A stretch of 64,000 nt of DNA from Verrucomicrobiota bacterium (GTDB lineage Bacteria > Verrucomicrobiota > Verrucomicrobiia > Opitutales > Opitutaceae). Positions 27,669 through 29,494 of this stretch are shown here, piece by piece. The first letter of the stretch is position 1. Each line of letters begins with the position of its first letter. Below the pieces are notes generated by a model. That model ran no database searches. It saw nothing but the letters and a program-made list of their open reading frames with translations, and was not told where the DNA came from. Both the position numbers and the translations under genes were made by a program. Location: contig JACRKC010000009.1 of the NCBI GenBank assembly GCA_016235555.1, positions 1 to 64,000 of the forward strand. Reading direction: 5' to 3'.

Positions 27669-27785
27669 ATGAAGAAAGTCCCGGTCGATCTTTCGATGTT
27701 AGCCGTGGCGACCGACAGCCACGATGAAAACGCCTGGTATCTCGATCTCGAAACCGGCGATGTCTTACGTGCTCGCGTGCAGTGA
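27669..27785 (+). pseudogene. Truncated UPF0158-like remnant
   Basis: 38 codons: MKKVPVDLSMLAVATDSHDE then NAWYLDLETGDVLRARVQ and stop. The run YLDLETGDV is typical of the start of UPF0158 proteins, which are normally about 140 aa or more, so this is probably only the N-terminal end. No continuation was found in the other frames downstream. It lies beside the AAA ATPase gene boundary and may have been cut by it. The longer upstream frame is not family-like. Confidence 0.5.
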
Positions 27786-27857
27786 ACAGCCACACGCTGG
27801 CCGCACCCATCATCACGCAGCGCCCTCTCTCTCGTTGCCAAGCGTTCGCTTAGTAAG

Positions 27858-29270
27858 TCAGCCGTTAGCATCATCCCCATAGAGCTGCGGCAGGGCATAG
27901 ATCGCGAGGTCCGGCGGCGCCATGCGCGGTTGGCTGCGCAGGAAAGCCACCGGGCGGACGGTGCGGCCCTTCCCCGGGTAGTGCGCCACGCGCGCCGCGA
28001 GTTCGCGGGCGACGGTGGCCGGGGCGGACCGGCCGTGCCACTTGCACTCGCCGAGATCGATCCAGCCGTCGGCGCGCAGGCCGACGACGTCGATCTGCGC
28101 GGCGCGGTCCCAGTATTCACCGACTGCGAATTTTCCGGCGACTCCCTCGGCCGCGTAGAGCAGCGGCAGGGCCTCGCGACACAGCCGCTCGAAGCTGTCG
28201 CCGCAATAGGCGTCCCATTGCGGCGCGACCAACTGCTCGAAGGCGCGCTCCGGACCGAACCGGCGCAGCGTGCTCCAGTGCGGCTCGATAAACCGGAACC
28301 AGAACCGGAGCAGGGGATCCGCCACCCGGTAGAGCACGGAGGTGCGCGGCGGGCGGCCGGGCATGAGCGGAAACACGCGTTCGAGATAGCCGGGCGCCAC
28401 CAGACTTTTCAGGTGCGGCGCCAGGGCCGCGGTGCTGAGGCCGATGCTGCGCGCGATTTCGCCCTGGCTGTGGCGCCCGCGCGCCGTGGCTTCGAGGACA
28501 CTCGCCGCCTGCTTCACTTCGGCGAGTTTTTCGCGCAGCAGAAAATCCGGCTCCCGCTGGAAAAACGCGTCCACCGCGAAGAACTCCGTCGCGATGTTCT
28601 GCGCCACGGAGCGGTGGGGATCGAACCGGCGCAGATAGGCCGGGATGCCGCCGCAGATAAAACAGGCCCGCGCCTGCTCTTCGCGCGACCAGCGGGGGTG
28701 GAACCGCGCCGCTTCGCGGAAGCCAAAAGGCTCCAACCGCAGCGCGGCGGTGCGCCGGCCGTGCAAGGGCGAGCGCGCGCCGAGCACCTCGCGCTCCATG
28801 AAACCGATGAACGAGCCGCACAGAATCAGGAGCAGGCGTTTGCCGCGCTGCCACTCGTGATCCCAGAGGCGCTGCAACACGGACGGCAGCTCCGGGCTGG
28901 AGGCGCAGAGCCATTGGAATTCGTCCAGCACGAGCACGAGCTTGCGACCGGCAGGAGCGGCGCCCAACACGAGGCGCAGGGCCGCCTCCCACGTTTGGGG
29001 CGCCGCCGCGGCCAGATGCGGCTGCGCCAGCCACTCGGCCGCGACGGCCATGAAGTCGGCGATTTGCGGCGTGCGCAGCTTGTCGCTCGCCGTGAAGCAG
29101 ACGGTCGGCTTCTTCGCGCAAAACCGCAGGATGAGTTCGGTTTTCCCGACGCGGCGCCGGCCGTAGACGGGAATCAGTCCCGATGACGCCGCCCGGTAGT
29201 GGCGCTCCAGCGCCGCCAGTTCAGCCGCCCGGCCGACGAATCCTCCAGGCATGGCGGGGCGGGCAGGCAT
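27858..29270 (-). CDS. AAA ATPase with C-terminal PD-(D/E)XK nuclease-like domain (ATPase_2/DUF234 type)
   Basis: 470 aa from ATG 29270 (29252 possible). Walker A is GRRRVGKT at 37-44; Walker B is LVLVLDEFQWL; a winged-helix segment (RHSQGEIARSIGLSTAALAP) follows at about 270-300. The C-terminal domain has AQIDVVGL followed by DLGECKWHG, the Asp and E-x-K of a PD-(D/E)XK nuclease. This is the archaeal-type ATPase/DUF234 architecture. The gene is bounded by an 11-bp direct repeat (27848-27858 and 29304-29314) and has a perfect 10-bp inverted repeat just upstream of its start. Function unknown; a mobile or defence-related role is possible. Confidence 0.85.
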   Translation of the reverse strand: MPARPAMPGGFVGRAAELAALERHYRAASSGLIPVYGRRRVGKTELILRFCAKKPTVCFTASDKLRTPQIADFMAVAAEWLAQPHLAAAAPQTWEAALRLVLGAAPAGRKLVLVLDEFQWLCASSPELPSVLQRLWDHEWQRGKRLLLILCGSFIGFMEREVLGARSPLHGRRTAALRLEPFGFREAARFHPRWSREEQARACFICGGIPAYLRRFDPHRSVAQNIATEFFAVDAFFQREPDFLLREKLAEVKQAASVLEATARGRHSQGEIARSIGLSTAALAPHLKSLVAPGYLERVFPLMPGRPPRTSVLYRVADPLLRFWFRFIEPHWSTLRRFGPERAFEQLVAPQWDAYCGDSFERLCREALPLLYAAEGVAGKFAVGEYWDRAAQIDVVGLRADGWIDLGECKWHGRSAPATVARELAARVAHYPGKGRTVRPVAFLRSQPRMAPPDLAIYALPQLYGDDANG

Positions 29271-29288
29271 GGGCGCGAGTTGCTCAGG

Positions 29289-29314
29289 ACTTACTAAGTC
29301 AATGCTTAGTAAGT
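29289..29314 (-). promoter_or_regulatory. Perfect inverted repeat before the AAA ATPase gene
   Basis: ACTTACTAAG and CTTAGTAAGT are exact complements separated by TCAATG, and end 18 bases before the ATG at 29270. The size and position suit an operator, perhaps for the winged-helix domain of the same protein. One arm (extended to 11 bp) is repeated right at the gene end, 27848-27858, so a role as an element boundary is equally possible. Confidence 0.6.
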
Positions 29315-29361: not shown

Positions 29362-29494
29362 GACCAACGGCTGCTGAAGAATGGACGATTGGGTCGCGTG
29401 GGTAGGTCGGGGTTTATCCCCGACGCCTGCGGTCGGACGAGGTCGGGCGTAAAGCCCGACCTACGATCATCCAAATCTCAACAGCCGGTGGTAT
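29362..29494. repeat. Compound element with ACCAACGGCTG ends and REP core, copy 1
   Basis: Left end GACCAACGGCTGCTGAAGAA, right end CCAAATCTCAACAGCCGGTG then GTAT. The core (29402-29464) is the GTAGGTCGGGG REP palindrome. The same outer frame and core occur at 45241-45378, with other intervening bases, so the outer ends belong to a larger element that carries a REP. It covers most of the gap between the AAA gene and gltD. Confidence 0.75.

Follow-up and report, generated by a model that had tools for sequence, protein, structure and literature searches.

A putative private operator of 15-bp-spaced iterons in front of a PDC-S27-type ATPase-nuclease gene

The closest described system to the gene considered here is PDC-S27, a PADLOC phage-defence candidate in which an ATPase is fused to a PD-(D/E)XK domain; the excerpted text of the source counts 4562 bacterial and 3503 archaeal systems and describes validation as pending for most PDCs (PMC12988326). 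An excerpt of a second report gives 2865 PDC-S27 in rumen genomes (PMC13356809). As to promoter control, the available part of a third paper describes RptR as a repressor that acts on a phage defence island promoter through tandem short palindromes lying over that promoter (PMC12255303). The PDC-S27 family is a known one; for the widespread cis element that precedes its genes we could not find a description in the open-licence PMC literature (preprints and subscription papers lie outside this scope), neither as repeats before DUF234 or DUF4143 genes nor as arrays under COG1672, SSO1545, PABY2304 or PF03008 combined with iterons. Within the same literature nothing was found on the control of PDC-S27 genes, and its excerpts described no experiment in which a PDC-S27/DUF234 protein was assayed for binding to DNA, for repression or for defence. 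In many archaea the Orc1/Cdc6 gene lies beside its DNA boxes. The DUF4143 ATPases (PDC-S01) form a sister family of ATPase and nuclease fusions, some members of which have upstream repeats.

The gene analysed lies in the window, by which we mean the whole 64-kb stretch of DNA that was studied; it starts with the ATG at 29270, with a second in-frame ATG at 29252, and ends with a TGA at 27860-27858 (Table 1). Its 470-aa product belongs to the ATPase_2/DUF234 family (PF01637 + PF03008), with Pfam matches to DUF234 (2.3e-15) and ATPase_2 (4.8e-14) that lie above the gathering scores (57.2 vs 22.5 and 53.2 vs 33.2 bits) and follow the domain order of the family. The PADLOC PDC-S27 model matches residues 11-414 at 7.3e-59, and NCBIfam profiles gave no match at E <= 0.001. 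In a protein alignment of 99 of 106 candidates (more than 400 aa, no stop; a second alignment held 52 of those 99), both PDC-S27 models match 99/99 members and a PDC-S01 model gives a weak additional match in 69/99. One protein carries, besides an ATPase of AAA/STAND-like type and a winged helix, an intact PD-(D/E)XK site, and the three domains, also named in an earlier, sequence-only reading of this DNA, are seen in an AlphaFold2 model of the full protein (mean pLDDT 95.6, pTM 0.92). The ATPase residues G37, R40, G42, K43 and E117 are invariant in all 99 aligned members. In the model, the winged helix is laid out as helices 252-263, 269-276 and 280-291 with a wing at 296-316; IclR/MarR HTH matches in Pfam are weak and below their cut-offs.

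Over the ATPase and winged helix the best structural match is PABY2304 (2qen; Z 22.3, rmsd 3.3, 301 aligned, 20% identity), followed by SSO1545 (2fna; Z 20.5, rmsd 3.4, 296 aligned, 20% identity); both alignments end at residue 326-327 of the window protein, before the nuclease domain, and are followed by Orc proteins and NLRs at Z ~15-16. The nuclease domain modelled alone (pLDDT 94.3) matches EndoMS (5gke; Z 9.0, rmsd 3.7, 109 aligned), McrC (6hz4; Z 8.9, rmsd 3.7, 118 aligned), AF1548 and Can/Card-type proteins, many of the top rows being nucleases and the Z of 8-9 being modest overall. The D...ExK active site of the PD-(D/E)XK fold is present, with E361, D394 and E408 kept in 98/99 aligned members and position 410 a lysine (K) in 94 and an arginine (R) in 4 of them; since these residues are conserved, the nuclease is predicted to be active. 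The window protein resembles PDC-S27 in its domain pair and in its patchy spread (a protein match at E <= 0.001 in 10/141 genomes, its own included), and the locus differs in that a promoter array is not mentioned in the excerpted text of PMC12988326.

Table 1. Positions of the ATPase-nuclease gene, its domains and the surrounding iteron units in the window
Feature	Position	Strand	Basis
ATPase_2 + winged helix + DUF234 nuclease gene, PDC-S27 type, 470 aa	27858..29270	-	translation, Pfam, PADLOC
P-loop ATPase domain with Walker motif GRRRVGKT and D116-E117, residues 11-240	28551..29240	-	Pfam, alignment, model
Winged helix-turn-helix, residues 252-316	28323..28517	-	AlphaFold2 model
PD-(D/E)XK nuclease domain with E361, D394 and E408-x-K410, residues 340-466	27873..28253	-	alignment, domain model
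5' iteron unit 1, ACTTACTAAGC	29304..29314	-	exact repeat
5' iteron unit 2, ACTTAGTAAGT, 15 bp from unit 1	29289..29299	-	arm of the perfect inverted repeat
TTGACT, -35-like hexamer formed by spacer TTG and iteron ACT	29297..29302	-	TTGAC recurrence in relatives
3' iteron unit, ACTTACTAAGC, sharing one base with the stop codon	27848..27858	-	exact repeat; kept in ortholog L016
Second 3' unit, degraded, GCTTGGCAACG, 15 bp further on	27833..27843	-	read from sequence

The sequence-only reading had reported 11-bp direct repeats at both gene ends and a perfect 10-bp inverted repeat placed 18 bases before the ATG, and both observations hold to the base. The repeat GCTTAGTAAGT occurs exactly at 27848-27858 and 29304-29314, and the arms 29289-29298 and 29305-29314 form the inverted repeat; 6 nt lie between the arms, and 29271-29288, a stretch of 18 bases, leads from them to the start codon. 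ACTTACTAAG has three mismatch-free copies in the window (27849-27858 on the minus strand, 29289-29298 on the plus strand and 29305-29314 on the minus strand), and allowing 1 mismatch brings the count to 5 vs 0.11 expected, a number reached by 0/100 shuffles. Across its own 8.03-Mb genome the bare 10-mer is found without mismatch at 4 sites, three at the locus and one on another contig (C33), and its backward-read control at 5; the 10-mer is therefore not rare genome-wide, and it is the clustering that is unusual. What had been called a palindrome resolves into two units of an iteron NCTTAnTAAGN with a 4-nt spacer, repeating every 15 bp: on the coding strand the 5' pair reads ACTTACTAAGC-ATTG-ACTTAGTAAGT, each 11-bp unit being near-palindromic. 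Even when 2 mismatches are allowed, this two-unit array occurs once in its own genome, and its control not at all. The array with its 15-bp period, the degraded unit behind the 3' copy and the TTGACT inside the array go beyond what had been noticed before.

Repeats of the same period precede many related genes. The 110 bp before the start were scored in 105 of 124 placed loci; duplicates (L002-L004, L049-L054, L061 and L063), 9 loci in which the match starts after query residue 20, and L062 and L096, whose upstream sequence falls short of 110 bp, were dropped. Start codons were set by script to the nearest ATG, else GTG/TTG, by which the second ATG was chosen for the window gene, and the regions before other ORFs of these loci, 144 in all, served as controls. 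An 11-mer repeated at period 15 with at least 9/11 matches was found in 38/105 homologue upstreams vs 7/144 controls (Fisher 2e-10), and with at least 10/11 matches in 25/105 vs 1/144; a period 16 repeat was found in 13/105 vs 1/144, and an inverted-repeat score of at least 9 in 41% vs 5%. Any of the repeat criteria was passed by 71/105 upstreams vs 15/144 controls, and none by the remaining 34/105. With differently placed starts, period 15 was detected in 34% of upstreams; the corresponding share was 0.4% for shuffles, 6.9% for -400..-290 regions and 3.1% for regions downstream. When the five discovery loci are removed from the 105, period 15 is still present in 35/100 upstreams (1e-9). Among representatives below 40% identity it was found in 8/27 and period 16 in 4/27, every other period from 11 to 40 (30 not counted) being found in at most 1/27.

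In the 55 loci with a period-15 array, two units are present in 27, three in 16, four in 10 and five in 2, and the arrays stop 0-68 bp ahead of the start codon. Palindromicity of at least 11 of 15 is seen for the units of 15/55 loci vs 2.6% of random 15-mers, and single-linkage clustering at 12 of 15 divides the unit consensuses into 19 classes, the largest with 28 loci. Six loci at 66-82% protein identity come from MAGs labelled Opitutaceae, Pseudomonadota, Gamma-/Deltaproteobacteria and Acidobacteriaceae, labels that on short contigs may be wrong; two of them (L020 and L021) stop short of the upstream region, and the 4/4 with upstream sequence show, by eye, two to four ACTTAnTAAGT-type units in 15-bp steps. 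A group at ~50% identity, which includes a paralog from the same genome as the window (L015), has by eye ACTTGACAAGT-type units in 15-bp steps, the upstream of L015 itself being below the repeat score threshold. Judging from these sequences, the spelling of the array varies between members and the 15-bp spacing stays. One Deltaproteobacteria-labelled locus (L019, 2986-3144) keeps a 5' array visible by eye and has a frame broken after the Walker motif, as in a decayed gene or through a sequence error, and was left outside the statistics for its broken frame; nor does it count among the scored close members, its scripted upstream having been misplaced. The record of another homologue, L018, is a single 3.9-Mb genome (G486) with seven protein matches at E <= 1e-10, whose upstream repeats differ where seen.

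The array extends to plasmids and to archaea. Among the best 20 of 157 plasmid records with a match, namely 19 haloarchaeal plasmids and Rhodothermus marinus pRMAR01, the period-15 score is at least 9 in 17/20 and 8 in the other three, and any period besides 15 occurs in at most 1/20; several of these best 20 copies have one common unit type and the sample does not represent 20 independent events. The pRMAR01 copy (L157) adjoins csm5 of a type III-A CRISPR system, and two archaeal plasmid copies (L160 and L162) lie near orc1/cdc6 and parA. In viral_contigs, 0 of 20 candidate stretches were confirmed as relatives with a single-protein query that reaches close relatives only. A period-15 tag that stands before many related genes and is spelled by gene type makes self-control likelier than genome jumping, and we regard it as probable, with some reserve, that this ATPase-nuclease of PDC-S27 type regulates its own expression by way of a private iteron operator with 15-bp spacing.

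The array could instead be a loading or licensing site comparable to the Orc1/Cdc6 origin boxes, on which assembly activates or restrains the nuclease and regulation is secondary. The ATPase and winged helix align with Aeropyrum ORC2 (1w5t; Z 15.8, rmsd 3.8, 301 residues), a sequence that varies while its 15-bp spacing stays fixed, in bacteria and archaea alike, would suit such a site, and 2/6 plasmid copies read with 2-3 kb flanks are near parA or orc1/cdc6. However, the closest folds are 2qen and 2fna rather than Orc (Z 22.3 for 2qen vs 15.8), and unlike Orc1/Cdc6 the window protein carries a nuclease domain and its gene is preceded by a short array before the start codon, with no replicon; the gene is chromosomal, and no replication gene was recognised beside it. 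The arrays are in general short, 27/55 having 2 units, and their distance of 0-68 bp from the start codon is that of an operator, all of which makes a loading site unlikely.

The array might also be the operator of an unrelated host regulator of such genes, as could be supposed from the members without a recognisable array. The best upstream 12-mer match reaches at least 11 in 30/40 cross-genome pairs with at least 60% protein identity, in 50/159 at 45-60%, 42/300 at 35-45%, 57/806 at 30-35% and 109/3533 below 30%; for same-genome paralog pairs it does so in 1/13, namely the window and L015, at 48% identity. Because cross-genome matches climb with identity and same-genome paralogs share them so rarely, the upstream sequence follows the protein and not the host; with the two-unit array also unique in its own genome, a host regulator becomes quite improbable. 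In a partial Mantel test over 46 array loci, the recognition helix gave 0.131, reached by 33/2000 permutations, which does not single it out; HTH helix 2 gave 0.187 (5/2000 permutations), and 13-residue windows near residue 203 scored higher.

The sequence-only reading had left the choice between a self-regulated unit and a mobile gene that recognises ACTTACTAAG sites at its borders, and had asked whether paired repeats recur at both borders of homologues. A 3' copy of at least 9/11 within 85 bp of the stop was looked for in the 47 homologues that have a period-15/16 array and reach far enough downstream, and it is present in 3/47: the window, which scores 11 against a background of up to 7; L016, which scores 9 against up to 9; and L118, which scores 9 against up to 10 and is of low complexity. 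The one convincing copy outside the window is that of L016, the 82% ortholog of the window gene. The window gene and L016 each follow, in the same orientation, a gene that we take to be gltD-like and whose start is near-identical in both; this common neighbour points most simply to an orthologous position and not to two insertions. In L016, ~1 kb extra separates the two genes (1900-2960), which by eye presumably holds a PIN-domain toxin, an antitoxin and a Vsr-like remnant. A mobile single-gene unit with ACTTACTAAG repeats as its ends would account for the exact 11-bp copies at both gene ends in the window, for the 66-82% relatives in MAGs labelled as other phyla and for the patchy occurrence in 10/141 genomes; nevertheless the rarity of 3' copies, 5' copies that form a tandem operator-like array instead of a single end, the neighbour common to the window and L016 and a unit sequence that varies between members all speak against it, and we consider it very improbable. 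With paired border repeats in so few homologues, mobility by way of them was rejected.

The 3' array is well conserved between the window and L016 amid otherwise diverged sequence, which makes a role in this lineage probable. The neighbours of the window gene look metabolic by eye. Between the gltD-like and ATPase genes, a REP-like inverted repeat lies at 29395-29470, with 40 scored matches (196 candidates) in its own genome. At the far boundary, the truncated UPF0158-like gene of the sequence-only reading is a plausible call: the 38-aa fragment (27669-27785), which ends ~63 bp short of the repeat, matches a 167-aa open frame of another genome (G006) at 61% identity across 33 aa, but it has no match in Pfam, and in the 3.1-kb locus of that frame no gltD was recognised by eye.

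TTGAC occurs upstream in 13/13 scored members at >=46% identity, the window included, and lies within or touching the array in 7/8 scored-array members at >=46% identity and one step beyond it in the eighth (L055). A -10-like hexamer follows at 16-18 bp in 7/13 scored members at >=46% identity, the window gene not among them. A sigma-70 consensus scan at the window gene gave no -35/-10 pair and no terminator, which leaves the relatives as the basis for placing a promoter there. A folding energy of -16.7 kcal/mol (z -3.19) was obtained for the window leader, as would be expected were the inverted repeat an mRNA-leader hairpin serving as attenuator or translation control, a reading to which we nonetheless give hardly any weight, since the TTGAC within or touching the array in 7/8 close members implies that the array may precede the transcript start and since the 15-bp spacing is maintained in archaeal members. 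The 3' array was also considered as an RNA hairpin and was unconvincing (z -0.48 in the window and -1.76 in L016).

Of the two options raised in the sequence-only reading, the self-regulated unit is the one favoured, though indirectly, by period-15 repeats in homologues and in 17 of the best 20 plasmid copies, by the TTGAC common to all 13 scored close members and by upstreams that follow the protein. We infer that the window protein would bind the array, repress its own gene and act in defence against phage. In the proposed self-control, the protein would bind through its winged helix, with several protomers side by side and one or two per 15-bp unit, and the bound protein would cover the promoter and keep the nuclease scarce; an infection or plasmid signal may then trigger ATP binding, upon which the protein would be released or its nuclease switched on, and the freed or active nuclease would protect the cell from mobile DNA. 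In the window and in L016, the 3' array might be a lineage-specific second binding site. Such an arrangement resembles that of RptR in that a defence promoter would carry tandem short palindromes; it differs in that, according to the available part of PMC12255303, RptR is a small repressor in its own right, with three 9-bp repeats and a TAGCTA core, whereas here the units, spaced at 15 bp and unlike from one member to another, would be bound by the ATPase-nuclease itself. More speculatively, and with a probability that we hold to be low, the nuclease-armed ATPases of this family in bacteria and archaea may in general possess a private tag with fixed 15-bp spacing, on which the assembly of an oligomer would, over and above repression, set the restraint or release of the nuclease, the tag serving as an address that ties each nuclease to its own locus.

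For an abundant putative defence gene such as PDC-S27, an array with fixed spacing and variable sequence in two domains of life offers an entry point to its control. The array would predict the DNA bound by each protein, permitting swaps between paralogs, and may help, as a DNA signature, to find members and to assign them to sub-types. In the DUF4143 ATPases, the sister family, the same principle may apply with a 23-bp period. In a sample of 30 DUF4143 loci, reduced to 27 after leaving out L126, L150 and L153 (no start) and with a few doubtful starts among those kept, period 23 was found in 6/27 upstreams vs 4/144 controls taken from the DUF234 loci, and period 15 in 0/27. Upstream repeats were seen in L144, L140, L137, L139 and other DUF4143 loci, the start codon sometimes lying inside the last unit.
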